DNA of 21,382 nucleotides from a virus. The DNA lies in the IMG/VR virus record IMGVR_UViG_3300009436_002330, positions 1 to 21,382 of that record; one strand, given 5' to 3'. The position numbers were made by a program, and so were the translations under genes. Positions 4,090-20,315 of this stretch are shown in pieces. Position 1 is the first letter of the stretch. The number at the start of each line of letters is the position of its first letter. The notes under the pieces are model-generated. The model saw nothing but the letters and a program-made list of their open reading frames with translations, was not told the origin of the DNA and searched no databases.

Positions 4090-6105
4090 CTAAATAAGGG
4101 GGGTATTTTTTAGAATTTCTAAATTACCCTCTTTTATTTTTAATATAATACCCATCTCTTTCGTGATATCACCCGTTAAGATATTATCACTAATGAAATC
4201 TTCACACAGATTCTGAATAATTCGCTTTATAGGTCTTGCACCATACTCTTCCTCAGAATTACGTTTTATTATCTCATCAACGACTGTTTTATGAAAAGTA
4301 ATTTCATAGTTACTTTCCGTAAGTCTTTCACTTAAAATATTTAATTCAATCTGAACAATTTTCTTTAGTGATTTATTATCTAATTTGTCAAAAACAATTA
4401 CATCATCAATTCTATTTAGGAATTCAGGGGTAAATTGATTCTTTAATGACTTTCTAATAATTGAATCTTTAATCTTTTCGTTATTACTATCATCACTAAA
4501 TCCAATTCCACCACCAAATTCAGAAACTTTCTTAGCACCTATATTAGATGTCATGATTATTAATGTGTTCGTGAAATTAATTTTTCTACCAAACGAATCT
4601 GTTAGGTGACCTTCATCCAATATCTGTAGTAATAGGTTAAAGACATCCTTATGACCTTTTTCTATCTCATCAAATAAGACAACAGAAAATGGGTTGTTCT
4701 TAATCTTCTCAGTAAGTTGTCCACCTTCATCAAATCCAACATAACCAGGAGGGGACCCAATAAGTTTAGAAACGTTGTGTTTCTCCATAAACTCACTCAT
4801 ATCCACCCTAACAATTTTATCAGGATCACCAAATAAGGTTTTAGCTAATGTTTTTGCTAAGTGTGTTTTACCAACACCTGTTGATCCTAAAAACATAAAT
4901 GACCCAATTGGTTTGTTAGAACCTCTAACACCAACACGGTTCCGTCTAATTGATTTGGAGATGATCTCAACCGCATTATCCTGACCTATAACATTCTTAG
5001 ATATTGTCTTTTCTAATGATAGAAGGTTCTTAGTCTCTTTTGTGTCAAGTTTAGTGATTGGGACACCCGTCATCTCGGTTATGATATTATATACATCATC
5101 AATAATAACGGGTTTCTTATTTAACTTTTGTTCAACACTCCACTTTTTCTTTTCTGACTCTAATTTCTTAATGACCTTTTTCTCATTATCTCTTAGTTCC
5201 GCCGCTTTCTCATAATCTTGATTCCTAACCATTTCTTGTTTATCCAACTTAATTAGATCTGATTGGTTTCTCAGTTTTTCGATAATAGCGGGAATTTTCA
5301 CATTAATTTTCTTTTCAGAACCTAATTCATCAAGAATATCTATTGCCTTATCGGGGAACTGTTTATCGGTAATGTATCTTTTAGATAAACTAACGATTGT
5401 TTCAATGACATTATCTTGGTATTCGACCATGTGATAATCCTCATAAGAATCTTTTAGGTTTTTTAGAATATCTATTGTTTCATCTGTAGTTGGTTCAGTT
5501 AGGACGATCTTTTGAAATCGTCTAACCAACGCACTATCTTTTTCAATATTCTTCTTGTATTCGTCGAATGTGGTTGCTCCGATACATTGTATTTCTCCCC
5601 TCGCTAATGCAGGTTTAAGGATATTTGCGGCGTCCATTGATCCTGATGCGTTTCCCGCACCGACCATTGTATGAATTTCATCTATGAATACAATTACATT
5701 TGGTGCATCTTGTAATTCATTTAATATTGCCTTAATTCTTTCCTCGAACTGACCTCGGTACTTAGTTCCCGCAACTAATGATGTTAAATCAAGGGACATT
5801 ATACGTTTATCTATTAGATTAGTCGGACATGATCCATCATTAATCATAAGTGCGAGTTTTTCTACTAACGCAGATTTACCAACCCCCGCATCTCCAACAA
5901 TAATGGTATTATTCTTCTTTTTCCTTGAGAGAATTTGAGCAATACGTCTAACTTCTTTATCACGACCGATTATTGGATCGATTAAACCTTGTTCAGCAAG
6001 TTTAATTAAATCTCTTGAAAAATTATCTAAAATTGGGGTTGAACTCCCTTTCTTTCCTTTACGTTGTTGTTGAGGTGCTCCCTCTTCAAAAAATTCTACA
6101 GACAT
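4090..6105 (-). CDS. ClpC/ClpA-like AAA+ unfoldase lacking the N domain
   Basis: A 671-residue Hsp100 protein that unfolds proteins by ATP-driven threading. AAA-1 has Walker A GDAGVGKS (71-78), Walker B VIVFIDE (137-143), GATT (177-180) and Arg finger region LVRRFQ (193-198). A short middle region (about 280-325) contains a UVR-like segment NQDYEKAAELRDNEKK, as in ClpC, rather than ClpB's long M domain. AAA-2 has Walker A GSTGVGKT (407-414), pore loop GYVGF (454-458), Walker B VVLFDE (475-480) and sensor region EFLNRIDD. GGGIGF (531-536) sits where ClpC/ClpA carry the VGF/IGL loop that docks on ClpP. The roughly 150-residue N domain that binds substrates and adaptors is replaced by about 25 polar residues. 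No clpP is present here, so it would use host ClpP. Divergent from Hsp20. Confidence 0.93.
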   Translation of the reverse strand: MSVEFFEEGAPQQQRKGKKGSSTPILDNFSRDLIKLAEQGLIDPIIGRDKEVRRIAQILSRKKKNNTIIVGDAGVGKSALVEKLALMINDGSCPTNLIDKRIMSLDLTSLVAGTKYRGQFEERIKAILNELQDAPNVIVFIDEIHTMVGAGNASGSMDAANILKPALARGEIQCIGATTFDEYKKNIEKDSALVRRFQKIVLTEPTTDETIDILKNLKDSYEDYHMVEYQDNVIETIVSLSKRYITDKQFPDKAIDILDELGSEKKINVKIPAIIEKLRNQSDLIKLDKQEMVRNQDYEKAAELRDNEKKVIKKLESEKKKWSVEQKLNKKPVIIDDVYNIITEMTGVPITKLDTKETKNLLSLEKTISKNVIGQDNAVEIISKSIRRNRVGVRGSNKPIGSFMFLGSTGVGKTHLAKTLAKTLFGDPDKIVRVDMSEFMEKHNVSKLIGSPPGYVGFDEGGQLTEKIKNNPFSVVLFDEIEKGHKDVFNLLLQILDEGHLTDSFGRKINFTNTLIIMTSNIGAKKVSEFGGGIGFSDDSNNEKIKDSIIRKSLKNQFTPEFLNRIDDVIVFDKLDNKSLKKIVQIELNILSERLTESNYEITFHKTVVDEIIKRNSEEEYGARPIKRIIQNLCEDFISDNILTGDITKEMGIILKIKEGNLEILKNTPLI

Positions 6106-6123
6106 ATATTATAAGGTTTTGTA

Positions 6124-6154
6124 TAAACATAACGAAAATCATACAAAAAGTCAA
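6124..6154 (-). promoter_or_regulatory. Host-type promoter of the Clp gene
   Basis: TTGACTTTTT (from 6154), 20 nt after TTG, then TATGTTTA (6131-6124), one mismatch from TANNTTTG. The expected start is near 6117, about 12 nt before the ATG. Confidence 0.6.
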
Positions 6155-6278
6155 ATCTATTTTAAAAAGACATTTAGTCATGATTTTTTATAATATACCG
6201 ACAAAAAGTCATATATCACGAAATGGTACTCATATTGTAATAAGAGAATTGATAATAAATAAAAAAAAACGTAAAATT

Positions 6279-6650
6279 ATGTTAGTATTTAAAAATGACC
6301 CATTTTTTAAAATGGTAGATAACTTCTTCGACATTGCTGAAGAAAATGAAACACATGGTCAGGTTATGTGGAATCAAACTTATGATGACAATCAACATTT
6401 AGTTGAATTTATTGTACCTGGTTTGAGTAAATCAGATATATCAATAGTTGTGGAGGAAAACCAACTAAAAATTTCACATGAAAAGACGGAAGAGACCTCA
6501 AAGTACGTTAATTCATTTGGTAGGGTATTTGATTTACCCGAAAATGTAGACGATAAGAAGATAACCGCTAAGGTTGAAGATGGTGTTTTACGGGTGTTAC
6601 TACCAAAAACCAAGAAGAAAAAGTCACAAAGAACAATTTCAGTTAATTAA
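6279..6650 (+). CDS. Small heat-shock protein, Hsp20/alpha-crystallin family
   Basis: A 123-residue ATP-independent holdase that binds unfolding proteins. The alpha-crystallin domain spans about residues 30-115: HLVEFIVPGLSKSDISIVV (beta strands 3-4), NQLKISHEK, FGRVFDLPENVDDKKITAKV and the hallmark DGVLRVLLPK. The C-terminal tail is basic (KTKKKKSQRTISVN) with an I-S-V tail near the usual I-X-I/V position. The ATG at 6279 is chosen because an upstream frame would run into the Clp gene and adds sequence unlike the family. Hsp20 genes are common in T4-like phages, where they are thought to protect phage proteins during infection. It is divergent from the Clp unfoldase, a natural functional pair. 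A hairpin follows. Confidence 0.93.
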   Translation: MLVFKNDPFFKMVDNFFDIAEENETHGQVMWNQTYDDNQHLVEFIVPGLSKSDISIVVEENQLKISHEKTEETSKYVNSFGRVFDLPENVDDKKITAKVEDGVLRVLLPKTKKKKSQRTISVN

Positions 6651-11195: not shown

Positions 11196-11212
11196 ATAAC
11201 ACAAATTATAAG

Positions 11213-11238
11213 AAAGTGGTCAATAGACCACTTTTTTT
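11213..11238 (+). terminator. Intrinsic terminator before the terminase gene
   Basis: AAAGTGGTC-AATA-GACCACTTT is a perfect 9-bp hairpin followed by four more T. It ends the pre-terminase unit and overlaps an in-frame upstream GTG, which argues that the terminase starts later, at 11252. Confidence 0.85.
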
Positions 11239-11248
11239 GTATTTATTG
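11239..11248 (+). promoter_or_regulatory. TATTTATT motif before terminase
   Basis: GTATTTATTG lies between the terminator and the terminase ATG, only 3 nt from the ATG. It matches the recurring late motif, but if it is a -10 element the transcript would be nearly leaderless. The role is uncertain. Confidence 0.3.
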
Positions 11249-11251
11249 GAT

Positions 11252-13033
11252 ATGGATAAACAGAAACTCATACAGTTAAAAGAATATGCTAAGATCATGA
11301 AGGACACTCCTTATGCTCTTAAAACATATTTACAGACATTTGACAATACTCAAAAGAGATATGTACCATTAGAGTTATTCCCCGATCAAATTGAACTTAT
11401 ACATGATTACGATAATTATAACGAAAACATTACACGTAAGTACAGACAAGCGGGTGTATCTACAGTAACCGCGGCTTGGTTATCTAAAAGAATCCAAACC
11501 GCAAAACCAACTAACCCCGAGAGAATTCTAATTATTGCCAACAAACGTGATACTGCGATTGAGATGGCTAATAAGGTTCGTGGTTTTTTAGATCAATGGC
11601 CCGAATGGATGAATGTTGGATTTTCACCTGATAAAAACTCAGAGAGTCGTTTTAGAATGAATAACGGATGTGAAGTTAAAGCGGTTGCAACCTCAGCGGA
11701 TGCACTTCGTGGATACACACCTACCGTGTTGATATTTGATGAAGCCGCGTATATTGATGCTGGTGAAGATTTTTGGGGTGCGTGTATGGCATCGTTGTCT
11801 ACGGGTGGTAAGGTTATACTTATTTCAACACCTAACGGTTATGATCCAATATATTATGGAGTATACGACCAAGCACTAAGAAAAATGAATGATTTTAAAA
11901 TTACCGATTTAAGGTGGTTTAAAGATCCTCGTTATGCTGGTGACCTTAAATGGTTAAAGGTGGATGATATCATACATTACATGTTAAATAGAGAGCAATA
12001 TGTTGATGAGGATATCACACTTAATGAAGGTTGGGATCGATACGAAGAATTACATGAATTAGGTTACAAACCCTATTCTCATTGGTTTGAGAATATGGCA
12101 AAGAAATTTAAGTACGATAAGAGAAAAATTGCACAGGAATTAGAATGTGATTTCTTAGGTTCGGGTGATGGTGTTATATCAAATACTATACAAGAGAAGA
12201 TTAGGAAAACAATGATTACCGAACCAATTGAAAAATATATGCAAGGAACATTGTGGGTTTGGAAAGAACCTGTAATGGGACATCGTTATATTATGGGTGT
12301 TGACGTTTCTCGTGGTGATAGTGCTGATGCATCTTCAATATGTATTATTGATTTTGATGAGGGTGAACAAGTATTAGAATATGTTGGTATGATACCACCT
12401 GATGATTTAGCGTCTATTGTTTATAAATGGGGAACACTATATAATGCATTCGTAGCAACTGATATAACAGGTGGTATGGGTATTGCAACATCTCGTAAAT
12501 TACAGGAGTTAGGTTACAAAGACCAATACGTTGATGGTGTTAACTCACAAAACAAGTGGGAATACAATAAAAAGGCACAAGAAAAGATACCTGGTATCAG
12601 TTTTAATAATAAGAGAACTCAAATTGTTGCAAGTTTTGAAGAAAACTTAAGACATGGTTTTAAAGTAAAATCATCTCGTCTATTAAATGAATTGAATACA
12701 TTTGTTTATGTTAATGGTAGACCTGACCACATGAAAGGTGCACATGACGATGCAATTATGGCAATGTCAATTGCAATGTATGTTGGAGATATTTGTTTTA
12801 CACAGTTAAAACGTAACGACACCGCAAACAAAGCAATGTTAGATTCGTGGGTATTTAGTGAAAGAACTTATGATACTCAAAAGTCGTTTTACTCCTACGG
12901 TACTGCGTTTGATGCGATTGGTTCTATGAGTACTGACCCGTCACCATACCCGATAGGACAGAAAGATGCGAGTAAGGAACAGTACATGGAACATAATTGG
13001 TTATTTGGTAAATCAACATATAGATCAAGATAA
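11252..13033 (+). CDS. 17: Terminase large subunit (gp17-like)
   Basis: A 593-residue DNA-packaging motor with ATPase and headful nuclease domains. The N-terminal ATPase carries a variant Walker A, KYRQAGVSTV (63-72), where the usual GK(S/T) lysine is missing and the conserved RQ is kept, as in several terminases. Walker B is VLIFDEAA (159-166, D163 and E164), followed by the coupling motif ISTPNGY (191-197). The C-terminal RNase H-like nuclease has acids at D351 (MGVDVSRGD), D404 (ATDITGG) and D499/D500 (HDDAIMAMS). The ATG at 11252 is preferred over an upstream GTG that lies inside the terminator hairpin. In T4, genes 18 and 19 follow gene 17; here the portal follows directly. Confidence 0.97.
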   Translation: MDKQKLIQLKEYAKIMKDTPYALKTYLQTFDNTQKRYVPLELFPDQIELIHDYDNYNENITRKYRQAGVSTVTAAWLSKRIQTAKPTNPERILIIANKRDTAIEMANKVRGFLDQWPEWMNVGFSPDKNSESRFRMNNGCEVKAVATSADALRGYTPTVLIFDEAAYIDAGEDFWGACMASLSTGGKVILISTPNGYDPIYYGVYDQALRKMNDFKITDLRWFKDPRYAGDLKWLKVDDIIHYMLNREQYVDEDITLNEGWDRYEELHELGYKPYSHWFENMAKKFKYDKRKIAQELECDFLGSGDGVISNTIQEKIRKTMITEPIEKYMQGTLWVWKEPVMGHRYIMGVDVSRGDSADASSICIIDFDEGEQVLEYVGMIPPDDLASIVYKWGTLYNAFVATDITGGMGIATSRKLQELGYKDQYVDGVNSQNKWEYNKKAQEKIPGISFNNKRTQIVASFEENLRHGFKVKSSRLLNELNTFVYVNGRPDHMKGAHDDAIMAMSIAMYVGDICFTQLKRNDTANKAMLDSWVFSERTYDTQKSFYSYGTAFDAIGSMSTDPSPYPIGQKDASKEQYMEHNWLFGKSTYRSR

Positions 13034-13085
13034 CTTTATTTACTAATATATTTTCCTTATATTATAAAGTATAATATTTATTAAT

Positions 13086-14924
13086 ATGGCAAACAAAAAC
13101 TTAACAGTTTATCAAAGGTTAACAAAGGTGTTCGGATTTCAAAATGATGTCCCTAATCCACCGCAATATCGTTTCGACAAAGATACTCTGTTAAAAACAG
13201 ACAGTAAAGAGGACTACGAAAGAGAGTTACTCCAAGCAAAACAATCGACATACGTTGCCGACAAGTGGGCCAAGATGGACCAATCACTATATAACCAATC
13301 GGTTTATTACGAACCAAATAGATTGGCCGCATATTATGATTACGAATCAATGGAGTTCACACCTGAGATATCTGCATCGTTAGATATCTATTCTGAAGAG
13401 TCAACAACCCTTTCAGAAAAAGGAGAAATTCTAACAATATACTCCGAATCAAAAAGAGTAAGTAACATCTTAGAAGACTTATTTAAAAACGTACTCGACA
13501 TTAACACAAACTTACAGATGTGGTGTAGAGGAGTTGCCAAGTACGGTGACAACTTTGTATATCTAAAGATTGACCCGTCAAAAGGAATAGTTGGATGTCA
13601 ACAGTTACCTAACATTGAAATTGAAAGACATGAAGGTGCTGCGTCTCACGTACACAAAGCCGAGACACCTGTAAACATGAAAACACGTGAATTACGTTTT
13701 GCATGGAAAAATAAGGATATGGAATTCCAAGCATGGGAAGTTGCACATTTCAGATTATTAGGTGATGATAGGAAGTTACCATATGGTACGTCAATGTTGG
13801 ATAAGGTAAGACGTATATGGAAACAACTACTTCTTGCAGAAGATGCAATGTTAATCTATAGAACTTCAAGAGCACCCGAAAGAAGAGTGTTTAAAGTGTT
13901 CGTGGGTAACATGGACGATAAGGATATTGAAGCATATGTACAACGTGTTGCAAACAAATTCAAAAGAGATCAAGTAGTTGATCCTGCGAATGGACAAGTT
14001 GATATGAGATACAACCAAATGGCGGTAGATCAAGATTATTTTATACCTGTAAGGGATCCATCACAAACAAACCCAATTGAAACATTACCAGGAGCACAGA
14101 ACTTAGGTGAGATTGCGGATATTGAGTACATTCAAAAGAAATTATTAGCGGCACTAAGAATACCAAAGGCGTTCTTAGGGTTTGAGGAAATTGTTGGTGA
14201 TGGTAAAACATTAGCATTAATGGACATACGTTTTGCAAGGACGATTAATAGAATACAGAAGTCACTTGTTCAAGAGTTAAATAAAATTGCATTAGTACAT
14301 TTATATCTTTTAGGTTTAGAAGATGAACTTACTAATTTTACATTATCATTAACTAATCCATCCGCACAATCTGATTTATTAAGGATTGAACAATGGAAAG
14401 AGAAGATTACGTTATACAAAGATGCTACTTCCGATCAATCTCAGATTGGTATCCAACCAGTGTCACACACATGGGGTAAGAAGAATATTCTTGGTATGAG
14501 TGATAATGACGTTGTACTTGATTTACAACAACAAAGACTTGAAAGAGCACTTGGTGCTGAATTAGGTATCACACAAAACATTATCAAGAGAACTGGTGTG
14601 TTTGATGAGGTAGATAAGAAGTACGGTATCCCTGAAAAGGATAGACAAGCAATGGACGCTTCAATGACACCTGAGACTGGTGGTGGAGATGATATGGGTG
14701 GAGCTCCTCCTATGGGTGGTGCAGACGCACCTCCAATGGATGATGCACCATTAAGTGAAGACAAGAAAAAAAGTAAATCTAAATTAACGGAAAGTAAGAA
14801 ATCTAAAATATTGGGTATGTTAGGTGATGAAACAAAAGATTTTGATGATCTTTTTGATCTCGATAAGGCTCAACGCAATATTTATGAAGTAGAGAATAAA
14901 CTCAAAGACATATTAAAAGAATAA
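13086..14924 (+). CDS. 20: Portal vertex protein (gp20-like)
   Basis: A 612-residue protein that forms the dodecameric portal through which DNA is packaged and on which the prohead initiates. The T4-type portal signature is seen in YESMEFTPEISASLDIYSEE (about 81-100), the wing/stem region with WCRGVAKYGDNFVYLKID, the segment AEDAMLIYRTSRAPERRVFK and the C-terminal clip/crown region ending in a helical segment. A low-complexity Gly/Pro/Asp insert (about 541-568) precedes a Lys-rich tail with LTE-S, a possible prohead-protease site. It starts 52 nt after terminase behind an A/T-rich leader with no Shine-Dalgarno sequence. A TATTTATTA sits 2 nt before the ATG; it may be coincidental. Confidence 0.96.
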   Translation: MANKNLTVYQRLTKVFGFQNDVPNPPQYRFDKDTLLKTDSKEDYERELLQAKQSTYVADKWAKMDQSLYNQSVYYEPNRLAAYYDYESMEFTPEISASLDIYSEESTTLSEKGEILTIYSESKRVSNILEDLFKNVLDINTNLQMWCRGVAKYGDNFVYLKIDPSKGIVGCQQLPNIEIERHEGAASHVHKAETPVNMKTRELRFAWKNKDMEFQAWEVAHFRLLGDDRKLPYGTSMLDKVRRIWKQLLLAEDAMLIYRTSRAPERRVFKVFVGNMDDKDIEAYVQRVANKFKRDQVVDPANGQVDMRYNQMAVDQDYFIPVRDPSQTNPIETLPGAQNLGEIADIEYIQKKLLAALRIPKAFLGFEEIVGDGKTLALMDIRFARTINRIQKSLVQELNKIALVHLYLLGLEDELTNFTLSLTNPSAQSDLLRIEQWKEKITLYKDATSDQSQIGIQPVSHTWGKKNILGMSDNDVVLDLQQQRLERALGAELGITQNIIKRTGVFDEVDKKYGIPEKDRQAMDASMTPETGGGDDMGGAPPMGGADAPPMDDAPLSEDKKKSKSKLTESKKSKILGMLGDETKDFDDLFDLDKAQRNIYEVENKLKDILKE

Positions 14925-14926
14925 TT

Positions 14927-15658
14927 ATGGCAACATTTGGACATATAAAAAACAAAGTTCTAAACAAACTATCTAACTCTTATGGTAAGGGTGAATTTAA
15001 AACTAACCTGAAGGAACACTTCAAACCAATAATGGAGAATGACATTTTAAAAGAAATGTACTCCCTTTATGAGGAATTAGAAACAAAAACGTTTGACGAT
15101 AAAGAAACTGCACAGTTATATGTGGAAGAACTATCTAAAGTTTTAAAAGAAAGACATTCTGAGGTAAGTACTGTACTTAACCAAATGAACGAATCATTAA
15201 CTGATACTAACGTTGAATCAAATAAGTTGTATGAGTCTTTAGATAGACTTTCAACAGAAGATAAGTTAGGTAATATTTCTGAAAAGGTAATCGCTAAGAA
15301 ATTCTTAGTTGAACATTTAACTACAAGTAAAGTGTCGAATACACTAAAAGTAGAAACAGGGGTAAATGAAAGTTTACTAAACTCTGTATTGACAAATAAC
15401 TTCAACATTAGTTTTGATAAAACATTAAGTGAAGAAGATAAAACTAAATTAAAAGGTATACTCTCAATAACTAATGAGGACTTAAATACTAAATTTGGTG
15501 AATTAAAAGAATCAATAAACGGTACTTTAGATTCCTTAGTTGAGTCGGACAATGAATTTACATCTAAGTCTGATGAGGTAAAAAAGGAAATAAACGAAAT
15601 GACACAAACGAAATACAACTTATATCGTTTAGAAGAATTATTAGAGAACTTAAAATAG
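14927..15658 (+). CDS. Helical protein in the gp67/gp68 position, 243 aa
   Basis: A strongly helical, charged protein starting MATFGHIKNKVLNKLSNSYG and ending RLEELLENLK. It has heptad-like Leu/Ile spacing throughout, no cysteine and no membrane segment. It begins 2 nt after the portal stop, so it is co-translated with it. In T4 this slot holds the small prohead core genes 67 and 68. The composition and position suggest a core or portal-associated assembly protein, but I see no sequence signature linking it to gp67/68. The large minus-strand frame antisense to it is a shadow. Confidence 0.85.
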   Translation: MATFGHIKNKVLNKLSNSYGKGEFKTNLKEHFKPIMENDILKEMYSLYEELETKTFDDKETAQLYVEELSKVLKERHSEVSTVLNQMNESLTDTNVESNKLYESLDRLSTEDKLGNISEKVIAKKFLVEHLTTSKVSNTLKVETGVNESLLNSVLTNNFNISFDKTLSEEDKTKLKGILSITNEDLNTKFGELKESINGTLDSLVESDNEFTSKSDEVKKEINEMTQTKYNLYRLEELLENLK

Positions 15659-15690
15659 ATTTCCTTGACGGTTGCTACCTTAGAGGTGTA

Positions 15691-15734
15691 AACCTTCACT
15701 TTTGAAATATCATAATCAATCGTGGAGGTTTTTT
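15691..15734 (+). terminator. Probable terminator after the 243-aa gene
   Basis: AACCTTCAC (15691-15699) pairs with GTGGAGGTT (15722-15730), with one G-U pair and a 22-nt loop, and is followed by TTTT. The large loop lowers confidence. It separates the portal unit from the inverted bS21 gene. Confidence 0.55.
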
Positions 15735-15921
15735 ATTGCTCCTTATCTTTTATTTTTTGAATATACACCGCCTTTTGTTTTTGTAATCTTTTACTGACTG
15801 AAGGTTTCGTGTGTTGTTTCCTATCTCTAAGTGATTTTAACTGTTTCACATTCTTTATTTTACGACGTAATTTCTTGATCGCTTGATCGATGTTGTTATT
15901 CTTTACTTTTATTATTAGCAT
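15733..15921 (-). CDS. rpsU: Small ribosomal subunit protein bS21
   Basis: A 62-residue complete bS21: the N-terminal strand MLIIKVKNNNIDQAIKKLRR, a basic middle KIKNVKQLKSLRDRKQHTKP, and the C-terminal helix SVSKRLQKQKAVYIQKIKD. The motif TKPS and the end KAVYIQKIKD resemble Bacteroidetes bS21, including the Tyr (residue 53) near the C terminus. bS21 sits on the platform of the 30S subunit near the 16S 3' end. In Flavobacterium ribosomes, bS21 with bS18 and bS6 hides the anti-Shine-Dalgarno tail. A phage copy could replace the host protein and alter mRNA choice. It lies inverted within the head cluster, between a terminator and its own promoter. Identity is by sequence; the effect on translation is inferred. 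Confidence 0.93.
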   Translation of the reverse strand: MLIIKVKNNNIDQAIKKLRRKIKNVKQLKSLRDRKQHTKPSVSKRLQKQKAVYIQKIKDKEQ

Positions 15922-15936
15922 AATTTGATATATACA

Positions 15937-15967
15937 TAAATATAATGAAAAAATTTGTTATTACGAA
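15937..15967 (-). promoter_or_regulatory. Possible host-type promoter of bS21
   Basis: On the minus strand TATATTTA (15944-15937) lies 20 nt after TTC (15967-15965), giving the TTG-N20-TANNTTTA architecture with one -33 mismatch. The expected start is about 9 nt before the ATG. A TATTTATG late-like motif overlaps it, so timing is ambiguous. Confidence 0.4.
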
Positions 15968-16017
15968 TTTAAATGTGTATATTTTAGTAACACCATAAAT
16001 AAGAATAAACATGTTAA

Positions 16018-16443
16018 ATGAAATTAGGAAGATTTATTCCTTTAGGTACTTACAAAGATGTTAAAATTGGATACGGAACTATAAATCACAAAGATTTAAA
16101 GACTATATATTTAAAATTAAATTCTTGGCTCGAACCTGATGAGGAATGTACGGATTACGACTCAGTGGTTAGGTCATCAAGAAATGACATAAAAAGATTA
16201 ATAAGTGGATTGAATAGTGATTCATTCCGACCACAGTCTATTGTCGATTTAGACATTAGAACTAAAGGTATTAAAAAAGAAAAGAGATCGTTTATGAATT
16301 TAGAATGTACGTTATACGTTCTAAAGGACTTATCAATTAAAAGTGACGATCTTAAATTGTATATGAAATCACTTATGGTTGGTATAATCGATGAGTGTTT
16401 AAATAACGATTTATTGTATAATTTTCACAAAAATAAAAAATAA
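16018..16443 (+). CDS. Phage protein before the prohead protease, 141 aa, unknown
   Basis: A basic protein starting MKLGRFIPLGTYKDVKIGYG and ending LLYNFHKNKK. The N-terminal half appears beta-rich and contains DEECTDYDS; the C-terminal half is helical (LKDLSIKSDDLKLYMKSLMV). No transmembrane segment or catalytic motif was seen. The start at 16018 is supported by the upstream A/T-rich leader; an out-of-frame ATG lies 7 nt before. It lies between the inverted bS21 gene and the prohead protease and is followed by a separate late-type motif. Its position suggests an assembly role, but the family is not recognised. Confidence 0.75.
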   Translation: MKLGRFIPLGTYKDVKIGYGTINHKDLKTIYLKLNSWLEPDEECTDYDSVVRSSRNDIKRLISGLNSDSFRPQSIVDLDIRTKGIKKEKRSFMNLECTLYVLKDLSIKSDDLKLYMKSLMVGIIDECLNNDLLYNFHKNKK

Positions 16444-16456
16444 CTTCGATACCGAT

Positions 16457-16465
16457 GTATTTATA
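16457..16465 (+). promoter_or_regulatory. Candidate late promoter of the prohead protease
   Basis: GTATTTATA, 19 nt before the protease ATG, is a strong match to the recurring late motif and spaced plausibly for a -10 element. Confidence 0.5.
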
Positions 16466-16484
16466 GTAATAAAACTATTCATAC

Positions 16485-17168
16485 ATGAAAGTATTAGGTC
16501 CAAAAGAAACAGGTACAGGAATCCTCATCGAATACGATGCGGGTTTTGTGTCTCCTGATGAAAATAAAACAGTAATAACAGAAATGAAGGGTGTTGACTT
16601 CTCAGAAGACATTATTCTTTATGCTGTTCTACAAAAATACGACACTCCAAATAAAAACGGTAGAATATATCCTGAGAAACTTCTCAAACGAGAAATGGAT
16701 AAATATAAGACCGTTATCGAGAAAGGGAGTGCATTAAATGAGTTAAATCACCCATCATCTTCACTTATAGATTTAGATAGAGTATCACACACGATCACCG
16801 AGACTTGGTGGGACGGTAAGATACTTATGGGAAAAATTAAACTACTTCTTTCACCTGGATGGAAAAAATCAGGTATTGTAAGTACTAAGGGTGACCAAGC
16901 CGCAATGTTACTTATGAATGGAGTGACATTGGGAATATCTTCAAGAGGTGTTGGATCATTAAAATCAGAAAAAGGACAGAATATTGTACAGGAGGATTTC
17001 GAATTAGTGTGTTTTGACTTAGTGTCATCACCATCGACACCTGGTGCATATGTTTTTAACGATCCTTCAGATAGAGAAAAATATGCTGAGAGTATAGAGG
17101 AAAAACCAATAGTAGATGATAGAATGTCGAGGTTAATGGGTAAGATGGATACGTTTTTAAATAAATAA
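16485..17168 (+). CDS. 21: Prohead core protein protease (gp21-like)
   Basis: A 227-residue serine protease of the T4 gp21 (peptidase U9/S78-related) family, which cleaves the scaffold and capsid proteins during prohead maturation. The core contains YDTPNKNGRIYP (52-63), then ELNHPSS with the catalytic His (H89), then the nucleophile segment GISSRGVGS with Ser152/153, and CFDLVSSPSTPGAY with Asp178 and the conserved PS-TPGA closing motif. The length matches the family. The gene follows a TATTTATA motif and precedes the scaffold, as in T4. The capsid protein downstream has an N-terminal LINE site fitting this protease. Confidence 0.95.
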   Translation: MKVLGPKETGTGILIEYDAGFVSPDENKTVITEMKGVDFSEDIILYAVLQKYDTPNKNGRIYPEKLLKREMDKYKTVIEKGSALNELNHPSSSLIDLDRVSHTITETWWDGKILMGKIKLLLSPGWKKSGIVSTKGDQAAMLLMNGVTLGISSRGVGSLKSEKGQNIVQEDFELVCFDLVSSPSTPGAYVFNDPSDREKYAESIEEKPIVDDRMSRLMGKMDTFLNK

Positions 17169-17222
17169 TTCAATTTATTATTGATCAGAACACCATAAAA
17201 GTAATTTTTTCTTAAATAACAA

Positions 17223-17234
17223 GTATTTATTAAT
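17223..17234 (+). promoter_or_regulatory. Candidate late promoter of the scaffold/capsid unit
   Basis: GTATTTATTAAT, 17 nt before the scaffold ATG. The capsid gene downstream lacks its own motif, so this is probably its promoter too. Confidence 0.5.
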
Positions 17235-17251
17235 AAATAAAAAAACAACAA

Positions 17252-18544
17252 ATGAGTAAAAAATCCATTTTAGAACAAGCATTGCTTCAAGTACAAGATC
17301 TTGAAGAGGCAGTTAAAGCGAACGCAAAAGGTATACTTGCTTCAACCATGAAGGAAGAACTAAACGAATTGCTAAAAGAATCAATGGAAGAAGAAGAGTC
17401 AGATGAAAGTCTGAGTCTTGATAAAGAAGACGAACAAGGTATACCTGAAGTAGCTGCAGAACAATTTGACAGTGAAGATGAGGAAAACGATGACGAAACT
17501 TCGATAAACGACGAGCCAGCGGACGACGAAGATCCTGATTTAGAGGATGAAGTTGTAGATGACGAATTAGACACTGAGGATGAATTAGATTCTGAAGTGG
17601 ATGATGTGTTTGATGCAATTGATTCTGAAGAAGAAGATGATCAAGACGTTCTTGATATGACCGACGCATCTGACGAAGAAGTTCTTAAGGTATTCAAATC
17701 AATGAAACCTGAGGATGGAATAGTAGTTAAGAGAGACGGTGATAACGTTGAGCTTGAAGATGGTGACGACGAATACATTATCAAATTAGACGATGAAGTA
17801 TCTGACGAAGTTGCTGATGAAGATCTTGCTGAAGAAGAAGATTGTACCGAAGGGTGTGATGATTCTGAAATCAAAGAAGATGTTTCTGAAGAAGACGACG
17901 TTGTATATGAAATTGACTTAGATGAAAGTGATGACGAAGTTGCTGAAGAAGAAGTTTCTGAAGAAGTTTCTGAAGAAAGCCTTGATGAAGAAGAAGTTTC
18001 TGAAGAGGATGAATTAGAAGTTCCTGAGGAAGAAACTCAAGAAGGAGAAGTTGACGAAGCGGCAAGAACAAAATCTAACGTACACGGAGACAAAGGTGGA
18101 GCTAACAGAGCGGGTATTAAGTCTAAGACAAAATACAAGGCTGGTTCAACCATCAACGAAGAAGTTAAGACTTTGAGAAAACAAAACGGCGAATATAAAA
18201 AGGCGTTAGTTCTATTCAAAGACAAACTTAATGAGGTCGCTGTGTTTAATGCTAATTTAGCATACTCAACAAGATTGTTCACTGAACATTCAACTACTCG
18301 TAATGAGAAATTAAATATTTTGAAGAGATTCGATACTGTTGGAACTTTAACAGAATCTAAATCAACCTATAAAACAATTAAGGGTGAGTTAGAGTCGTCT
18401 AAGAACGTAACAGAATCAGTGGTAAACAAGATCACTTCAAATAATCCGACAACGTCTTCATCTCAAGATGTACTTTCAGAGTCAAAAGCGTATGAAAGTC
18501 CACAATTCTCGAGAATGAAAGAATTAATGTCAAAAATAAAATAA
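17252..18544 (+). CDS. 22: Prohead scaffold (core) protein, gp22-like
   Basis: A 430-residue protein placed between the prohead protease and the capsid protein, the T4 gp22 position. Residues 1-45 are helical. About 46-270 are dominated by Asp and Glu, with repeated VSEE units. The C-terminal third (about 290-430) is helical and basic-to-neutral (LRKQNGEYKKALVLFKDKLN, then FNANLAYSTRLFTEH), as in gp22 C-terminal cores. LSE-S and INE-E resemble prohead-protease sites. The acidic region is longer than in T4 gp22 (269 aa in total), which fits the family's variable length. A 64-bp part (17996-18059) duplicates a piece of the 192-aa gene. It probably forms the removable internal scaffold. Confidence 0.9.
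   Translation: MSKKSILEQALLQVQDLEEAVKANAKGILASTMKEELNELLKESMEEEESDESLSLDKEDEQGIPEVAAEQFDSEDEENDDETSINDEPADDEDPDLEDEVVDDELDTEDELDSEVDDVFDAIDSEEEDDQDVLDMTDASDEEVLKVFKSMKPEDGIVVKRDGDNVELEDGDDEYIIKLDDEVSDEVADEDLAEEEDCTEGCDDSEIKEDVSEEDDVVYEIDLDESDDEVAEEEVSEEVSEESLDEEEVSEEDELEVPEEETQEGEVDEAARTKSNVHGDKGGANRAGIKSKTKYKAGSTINEEVKTLRKQNGEYKKALVLFKDKLNEVAVFNANLAYSTRLFTEHSTTRNEKLNILKRFDTVGTLTESKSTYKTIKGELESSKNVTESVVNKITSNNPTTSSSQDVLSESKAYESPQFSRMKELMSKIK
17996..18059 (+). repeat. 64-bp duplicated segment, copy B
   Basis: It matches 9487-9550 at 62 of 64 positions in the same frame. It lies at the end of the acidic VSEE-rich region of the scaffold, so the scaffold is the more likely source and the 192-aa gene the recipient; this direction is inferred. 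Confidence 0.95.
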
Positions 18545-18572
18545 TAAATTAAACAAAAAAACAAATTTTAAA

Positions 18573-20315
18573 ATGGGAGCATTATTAGAATCAGGTATGG
18601 TTGGTAACATTGGGTTAAAACACCTAAGAGTTATCAAGGAAGATACCATCAAAAAATGGGATGACTTAGGATTTTTAGAAAGTCTTGAAGGTCACCAAAA
18701 AGATAACATCGCTCAGTTATATGAAAACCAAGCGTCTTATTTAATAAACGAAGCTGCTGTATCAGATGCATCAGGTTCATTCGAAACAGTTGTTTTTCCA
18801 ATTATTCGTAGAGTATTCTCTAAGTTATTGGCTAACGATATCGTTTCTGTACAAGCTATGAACTTACCAATTGGTAAATTGTTCTACTTTGTACCTAACA
18901 TCTCTGACAGACAGAGTGCTGCACATGACGGTGCTGGTTTTGAAGCTGGAGCTCACAGAGCACCATTCAGATCACCAGGACAAACTGTTAACGGAGCTGA
19001 TCAAGGAAGAAATCTTTATGATAGATTCTACGAAGAAGGTGACGGAGCTGAAGAAGGTCTATTTGACTACTCTAAAGGTAAAGTTGTTGCTGGTGTTGCT
19101 AACTGTTTAGGTGGTGTAACATTTGCTGACGGAGTTGCAACAACTGCTGATGAAGTAATTGCGGCAAACGCAGTTGTATCTAACGTAGTAATCGCTGTTG
19201 GTGGATTTTCAAACGCAGGAGCTGGTAAATTAGCGGGACCTACAGGAAACGTTATGGATACTGAAGAATTTTTAGCTTCTTTAGAAGTTTCTTTTGATGG
19301 TAAATCAAAAGGAATCAACATTGTAACTCAGAAATACGGAAGTGGTATTGTTGATTACGGTAAGAAATCAGCTGGAGCAACAGGTCTATTTAATGACATT
19401 TGTGATGAGAATGGTATCATTTTCATTCAAGTTGATTTAGAAACTTACGGATCAACAGGATTTGTATCTTATGATGACGCCGCTAACGGTGCTGATGGAG
19501 TTGACAAAGCTGAGTTCACTGTATCATACAGAACTTACGAATCATTAGAATTCGAAGACGAAATCGGAGAAGTATCTTTCGATTTAGAGTCAGTTACTGT
19601 ATCTGTAACGGAGAGAAAATTAAGAGCTAGCTGGTCTCCAGAATTAGCACAAGATGTATCTGCTTTCCATAATATCGACGCTGAGGCTGAGTTAACAGCA
19701 TTGTTATCTGAGCAAATTGCAGCTGAGGTTGATAGAGAGATCTTAAGAGACTTAAGAAAAGGAGCAGCTTGGAACCTTAAATGGGATTACAATGAGTGGA
19801 AATATGGTGGAAACGGAAACGCAACACTACAAGGATACACTCAAAAGGATTGGAACCAAACGTTAATTACTAAAATTAACCAATTATCGGCTCAAATCCA
19901 TAAAACAACACTTAGAGGTGGTGCTAACTGGATCGTAGTTTCTTCAGAAGTTTCTGCAGTATTCGATGATTTAGAGTACTTCCACGTATCTAACGCAGGT
20001 GCTGAACAAGATCAATACAATATGGGTATTGAAAAAGTTGGTACTTTAGCTGGACGTTACCAAGTGTTTAGAGATCCTTATTTCCCAGCTGGGAAAATCT
20101 TAGTAGGACATAAAGGAAAATCGTTATTAGATGCTGGATATATCTACGCACCTTACGTACCTTTACAATTAACACCTACAATGTATAACCCGTTCAACTT
20201 TACTCCGATAAAGGGTATCATGACGAGATATGCTAAGAAGATGGTTAATAACCGTTACTTTGGTGTAATCAACGTAGCTGGTTTACAAACTTTCAGTTTG
20301 GATACTTTAAGATAA
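18573..20315 (+). CDS. 23: Major capsid protein (gp23-like)
   Basis: A 580-residue T4-type (HK97-fold) capsid protein. FPIIRRVFSKLLANDIVSVQ and PIGKLFYFVP mark the N-arm and start of the fold; SVTVSVTERKLRASWSPELAQD, DREILRDLRKGA and TPTMYNPFNFTPIKGIMTRY are classic gp23 segments. LINE-AAVSD at residues 57-64 fits prohead-protease cleavage after Glu60 (T4 cleaves after residue 65), giving a mature chain near 520 residues. It is longer than T4 gp23 (521); the extra residues appear mainly in a Gly/Ala/Val-rich insertion at about 170-230. It follows the scaffold by 28 nt and is closed by a strong terminator. It shares codon style with the rest of the cluster. Confidence 0.98.
   Translation: MGALLESGMVGNIGLKHLRVIKEDTIKKWDDLGFLESLEGHQKDNIAQLYENQASYLINEAAVSDASGSFETVVFPIIRRVFSKLLANDIVSVQAMNLPIGKLFYFVPNISDRQSAAHDGAGFEAGAHRAPFRSPGQTVNGADQGRNLYDRFYEEGDGAEEGLFDYSKGKVVAGVANCLGGVTFADGVATTADEVIAANAVVSNVVIAVGGFSNAGAGKLAGPTGNVMDTEEFLASLEVSFDGKSKGINIVTQKYGSGIVDYGKKSAGATGLFNDICDENGIIFIQVDLETYGSTGFVSYDDAANGADGVDKAEFTVSYRTYESLEFEDEIGEVSFDLESVTVSVTERKLRASWSPELAQDVSAFHNIDAEAELTALLSEQIAAEVDREILRDLRKGAAWNLKWDYNEWKYGGNGNATLQGYTQKDWNQTLITKINQLSAQIHKTTLRGGANWIVVSSEVSAVFDDLEYFHVSNAGAEQDQYNMGIEKVGTLAGRYQVFRDPYFPAGKILVGHKGKSLLDAGYIYAPYVPLQLTPTMYNPFNFTPIKGIMTRYAKKMVNNRYFGVINVAGLQTFSLDTLR

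Follow-up and report, generated by a model that had tools for sequence, protein, structure and literature searches.

We found that the window, a 21,382-base fragment of a virus from IMG/VR, encodes a ribosomal protein bS21, and with moderate confidence we regard it as a functional phage bS21 that is fixed in one T4-like clade probably infecting Bacteroidetes and that works by the mechanism proposed below. What phages gain from bS21, the commonest ribosomal protein encoded by viruses, is unproven. The rpsU-like gene (15733..15921, minus strand) opens with ATG and specifies 62 amino acids. In a Pfam profile search, its product matched PF01165 (Ribosomal_S21) with an E of 3e-11 and a score of 43.3 bits, where the cut-off is 27, and residues 4-53 of the protein spanned positions 2-52 of the 55 in the profile. 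The product also matched PHROG 21469, 'ribosomal protein S21' (E 1e-6), and the top PDB match was bS21 of Flavobacterium johnsoniae (7jil chain z), with an alignment that covers residues 1-60 and has an E of 7e-11. The product is near certainly bS21, and the preliminary description had correctly called it full-length and of Bacteroidetes type. Judging from the Bacteroidetes-type bS21, the SD-less genes and a cultured Flavobacterium relative described below, the host of the virus is probably a member of the Bacteroidetes.

The bS21 gene lies reversed between two hypothetical genes, hypA and CN, in a T4-like head cluster with the order TerL, gp20, hypA, bS21, CN, gp21, gp22, gp23. The genes flanking it (11216-20315, with TerL, Portal_T4, Peptidase_S77 and Gp23 among them) are all on the plus strand; the preliminary description had noted that bS21 runs opposite to its surroundings. 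They comprise the terminase large subunit TerL (11216..13033; PF03237, phrog_2), whose conserved start is probably 11252 according to aligned starts, the gp20 portal (13086..14924; PF07230), the conserved hypothetical hypA (14927..15658), which is convergent with bS21, the conserved hypothetical CN of 141 aa (16018..16443), which is divergent from bS21 and was found in 57 viral contigs, the gp21 prohead protease (16485..17168; PF03420), an acidic protein at the gp22 position (17252..18544) and the gp23 major capsid protein (18573..20315; PF07068). The protein at the gp22 position had no Pfam match; it is conserved between gp21 and gp23 and is a probable scaffold. A divergent intergenic region of 96 bp (15922..16017) separates bS21 from CN. 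The predicted structure of CN was confident (pLDDT 87), and its comparison with the PDB returned nothing at E below 0.001. The fold search gave a single match, to one uncharacterised phage protein, and no match to a protein of known function. T4 gp68, which has an equal position and an equal length of 141 aa, was considered as a homologue of CN and dropped after a profile comparison gave nothing.

Elsewhere in the window, a gene at 4090-6105 (minus strand) encodes a Clp-family double AAA+ ATPase of 671 aa without an N domain, in which an IGF loop, where ClpP docks in ClpA and ClpC, was seen by eye after MTSNIG. A protease directed against host bS21 might be brought in by phages of this sort, as McNutt et al. 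speculated (PMC9976891). An Hsp20 small heat-shock protein gene adjoins the Clp gene (6015-6650, plus strand); its listed TTG start overlaps the Clp start, and the true start is probably downstream. Three consecutive tRNA genes, Met(cat), Arg(tct) and Leu(taa), occupy 1935-2180 on the minus strand.

Relatives were gathered by three scans of viral contigs, one of the relatives being a contig of 287 kb. A divergent bS21 stood beside CN in 54 of the 55 contigs that reached past the 5' side of CN (57 contigs carried CN in all). Every TerL contig of sufficient length contained bS21, and there was no untruncated TerL contig without it. The lone exception was L132, in which 85 bases separate hypA and CN (L132:4915-5001), bS21 is missing there, and no PF01165 match occurs anywhere in the 11-kb record. 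If CN is the partner gene described by Chen et al., which is missing in two bS21-less outgroups of their study, then CN and bS21 are not obligate partners, because L132 retains the one without the other. The portal (gp20) gene of the same contig (L132:1101-4151) is 1016 aa long owing to an in-frame insert, which resembles an intein bearing an HNH endonuclease (S-ISSESMIYTLDGF ... FSHN-T). In other related phages, bS21 was found on the strand of the head genes (L018 and L165) or at a different location (L016), and the reversed orientation is therefore a property of this clade and not of phage bS21 generally.

The phage copies were compared with bacterial rpsU from genomes of the order to which a Maribacter hit (G001) belongs, 137 of 148 of which had a match. 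A tree was built from 35 phage copies and 67 bacterial ones on 64 columns; its inner branching order is weak, and one branch, with support of 100/86, splits the phage copies from those of the hosts. The closest sampled host bS21 was about 58% identical to the phage copy. The dN/dS values between the window bS21 and its relatives were 0.09-0.34, an estimate underlain by few changes, and indicated purifying selection. bS21 thus belongs to the head cluster as a conserved gene passed on vertically, and it is fixed in this clade.

We further examined the residues that face the ribosome. Tyr54 stacks on A1534 of the anti-Shine-Dalgarno (anti-SD) tail, and the N-terminal part of bS21 faces the mRNA (PMC9723584). 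The window bS21 has Tyr at aligned position 54, as do 31 of 35 phage and 61 of 67 host copies, and the position is aromatic in 34 of the 35 phage copies. Compared to the F. johnsoniae-like sequence, phage bS21 differs at positions 5, 8, 10, 14, 23, 24, 27 and 28. The changes include P to K or E at 5, a usual deletion at 10, F to V or I at 23, D to R or K at 24, G to K at 27 and T to Q at 28. The mean net charge of phage bS21 was +14.3 (+17 in the window) versus +10.6 in the hosts. Since it is the mRNA-side loop that is changed and Tyr54 is kept, the anti-SD tail should remain hidden on ribosomes that have taken up the phage protein. A change in SD-based mRNA selection is not predicted for that reason, and selectivity, if there is any, would have to arise where the N-terminal helix and loop have changed, in line with the proposal of Chen et al. 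(PMC9723584).

The start regions were then compared by RNAduplex energy between the 25 bases 5' of each start codon and the 16S tail UCACCUCCUUUCU. The bS21 start region of the window (15922..15946, minus strand) has no Shine-Dalgarno (SD) sequence, its best pairing being +0.8 kcal/mol, and the extended SD of autoregulated Bacteroidia rpsU (pairing stronger than -13 kcal/mol) was not found there. None of the 29 distinct phage bS21 starts reached even -8 kcal/mol. Of the 68 distinct host rpsU starts, 20 were at -13 kcal/mol or stronger, in a set that was clearly two-humped, and a very strong SD was also missing from the other 48. The remaining head genes were likewise devoid of an SD. Among 165 genes (those of the window and of 160 kb of one relative), 4 reached -8 kcal/mol versus 15 in mock regions. 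Starts at -6 kcal/mol or stronger numbered 9 of 20 in the T4 control, 1 of 22 in Flavobacterium phage immuto and 1 of 21 in the window. Nearly all genes of these phages lack an SD, and the SD-less bS21 start may thus be the phage default and not an adaptation. Because it has no SD, phage bS21 falls outside the SD-dependent feedback of rpsU, and by its sequence the gene should escape feedback by host bS21. The preliminary description had suggested that exchange for a phage copy could change mRNA selection. A switch driven by SD pairing through an exposed anti-SD tail is disfavoured by the retention of Tyr54 and by phage genes almost entirely without strong SDs, which weakens that part of the suggestion.

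The preliminary description had also assigned bS21 its own promoter. A generic sigma-70 scan gave promoters no more often than chance, and the claim is made plausible by the phage-wide motif TATTTAT, which lies 21-23 nt before many bS21 starts. On the strand of bS21 it occurred in 21 of 29 distinct phage upstream regions versus 2.7 expected in shuffles, and at fixed distances before TerL, gp20, gp21 and gp22 it occurred in 19-27 of 24-28 distinct upstream regions each (1.3-2.9 expected in shuffles), these counts coming from homologous and hence non-independent upstream regions. Within 35 bases of the start it preceded 47 of 165 phage genes, where the expectation was 6.5 and its reverse complement preceded 11. 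It was not found before hypA, CN or gp23 in the distinct upstream regions of relatives, and some freshwater-type relatives have no TATTTAT before bS21. In the window, the candidate late-promoter element for bS21 is TATATTTAT (15936..15944, minus strand; core TATTTAT), and a block upstream of it, AACAAATTTTTT (15948..15959, minus strand), was seen by eye to be conserved in most relatives. The T4-type late promoter TATAAATA was not enriched. A search of the window alone for the 10-mer GTATTTATAG, allowing one mismatch, gave no enrichment over shuffles, and our case for the motif is therefore built on gene-anchored positions. We infer from these positions that TATTTAT is a candidate late promoter.

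At the other end of the gene, a terminator-like hairpin with a U run (15690..15735, plus strand; -14.3 kcal/mol, z -4.5) marks the end of the gp20-hypA unit and sits between the convergent stops of hypA and bS21. A GACCAC hairpin with a T run, kept in relatives, was also seen at about 11200-11251, directly before TATTTAT and the TerL start, such that a candidate promoter comes immediately after a terminator and leaves room for hardly any leader. In 160 kb of the 287-kb relative (L213-L220), start-proximal TATTTAT was frequent in some of the 20-kb blocks, and the last block (L220) had none; the blocks rich in it held structural genes and a protein family beginning MKI.ITE.QL.

Together, these features fit a mechanism in which the phage protein likely replaces host bS21, a reading based on sequence. 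bS21 would be transcribed late, alongside the head genes, with a TATTTAT-type motif of its own as promoter, and its SD-less mRNA would be translated by ordinary bS21-containing ribosomes. Many rpsU genes of Flavobacteriales hosts have, in contrast, a strong SD and would work best on bS21-lacking ribosomes: in F. johnsoniae, rpsU has an extended SD, and ribosomes lacking bS21 translate it best (McNutt et al. 2023, PMC9976891). By its homology and its retained C-terminal residues, phage bS21 would bind the 30S platform in the place of host bS21. With Tyr54 kept, the anti-SD tail would stay hidden, and SD-less mRNAs of phage and host would remain translatable. The hidden tail would also keep the SD-bearing host rpsU repressed, which would make the replacement self-reinforcing. 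Phage mRNAs may in addition be favoured by the N-terminal helix and loop, which are changed and more basic, as has been hypothesised in print. That the phage actually exploits the host feedback, its SD-less bS21 holding the SD-dependent host rpsU off so that takeover of the ribosomes locks itself, would be a tentative extension of this scheme, and one we think rather unlikely.

The phage copy could instead do no more than replenish an initiation protein that is limiting and only loosely bound, which would keep many ribosomes active late in infection without favouring phage mRNAs. In Flavobacterium, bS21 has a part in initiation on SD-less mRNAs (PMC9976891), the Tyr54 side is conserved and expression is late in related phages (PMC9723584), all of which would suit a role in supply. 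Such a role by itself leaves unexplained the consistent divergence of the N-terminal helix and loop from those of every sampled host (positions 23, 24, 27 and 28), and why the phage copies stay a separate group and were not re-acquired from hosts; we consider it possible, if on the doubtful side. Ribosomes carrying phage bS21 might also translate host mRNAs poorly and so throttle the synthesis of host or defence proteins. Mizuno et al. (2019) showed incorporation of a pelagiphage bS21 into 70S ribosomes of E. coli, which had about 5% activity when assayed in an E. coli-based system (PMC6375957). That assay used a mismatched host, however, and since phage starts resemble the SD-less host ones, a block of translation in general would affect late phage proteins too, at the time of greatest need for them, which makes a shut-off of this kind quite improbable. 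A role outside the ribosome, with the basic protein for example binding nucleic acid in the head or virion, or serving as a packaged effector there, would agree with the site inside the head cluster and with the possible packaging of bS21 suggested by Chen et al. (PMC9723584), but the family score above cut-off, the conserved ribosome-facing residues including Tyr54, and the related phages whose bS21 lies outside such clusters or on the same strand leave it very little credence. The preliminary description likened the gene to a moron. Such a reading, with an rpsU taken recently from a host, dispensable to the phage and flanked by a promoter and terminator of its own, fits the opposite strand and the intergenic regions on both sides, but we reject it as scarcely credible, given the fixed synteny, the separate grouping from hosts, the purifying selection and an identity of at most about 58% to any sampled host copy.

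The reading we prefer, a functional bS21 that takes the place of the host protein, was compared with the closest known systems. Chen et al. (2022) described 47 phage genomes with a reverse-strand bS21 between two hypothetical families, within the region of TerL, portal, prohead protease and MCP, in phages of Bacteroidetes hosts (PMC9723584). Their bS21 retained Tyr54 or another aromatic residue, had diverged at N-terminal positions and was expressed late, and they hypothesised that it substitutes for host bS21 to favour phage transcripts. The window shares with their clades a-e the reversed bS21 between conserved hypothetical genes in the TerL-portal-protease-MCP region, and with their phages Tyr54, N-terminal divergence, a Clp gene in the genome, an opposite-strand partner gene beside bS21 and a bS21 of Bacteroidetes type. 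Their genomes are from freshwater and the complete ones measure 293-331 kb, whereas ours is a 21-kb fragment. The arrangement, the Bacteroidetes type, the retained Tyr54 and the exchange hypothesis are therefore already known from that study; the preliminary description's proposal of an exchange, on which McNutt et al. had also speculated (PMC9976891), is plausible and was made there first. F. johnsoniae bS21 (7JIL) agrees with the phage protein in family, in type, over the 60 aligned residues and in the C-terminal Tyr54 region. Unlike F. johnsoniae rpsU, the phage gene does not have the extended SD that drives autoregulation, and its product is more basic, one residue shorter near position 10, and has IKNVKQ in place of the loop FDKTGT. 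The bS21 of pelagiphage HTVC008M is likewise encoded by a phage, a large myovirus, but is of alphaproteobacterial type with a host to match; its entry into E. coli ribosomes was shown by experiment, while our case is drawn from sequence. The study that showed this also reported purifying selection (PMC6375957). A search for a cultured close relative with bS21 found none. The nearest cultured Bacteroidetes relative found was immuto (Immutovirus, MW353176), whose head-gene order is alike and whose gp23 and gp20 are about 40% and 38% identical to those of the window in the aligned parts; no bS21 was found in its whole 160-kb genome, and no reversed gene lies between its gp20 and gp21.

Our additions to this picture are small and two in number, the phage bS21 starts without an SD and the TATTTAT motif common to bS21 and capsid genes. 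Host rpsU often has an exceptionally strong SD, whereas phage bS21 is always without one. With this contrast it can be tested simply whether phages circumvent or exploit such ribosomes, a well-documented case in bacteria of specialisation by the loss of one protein.
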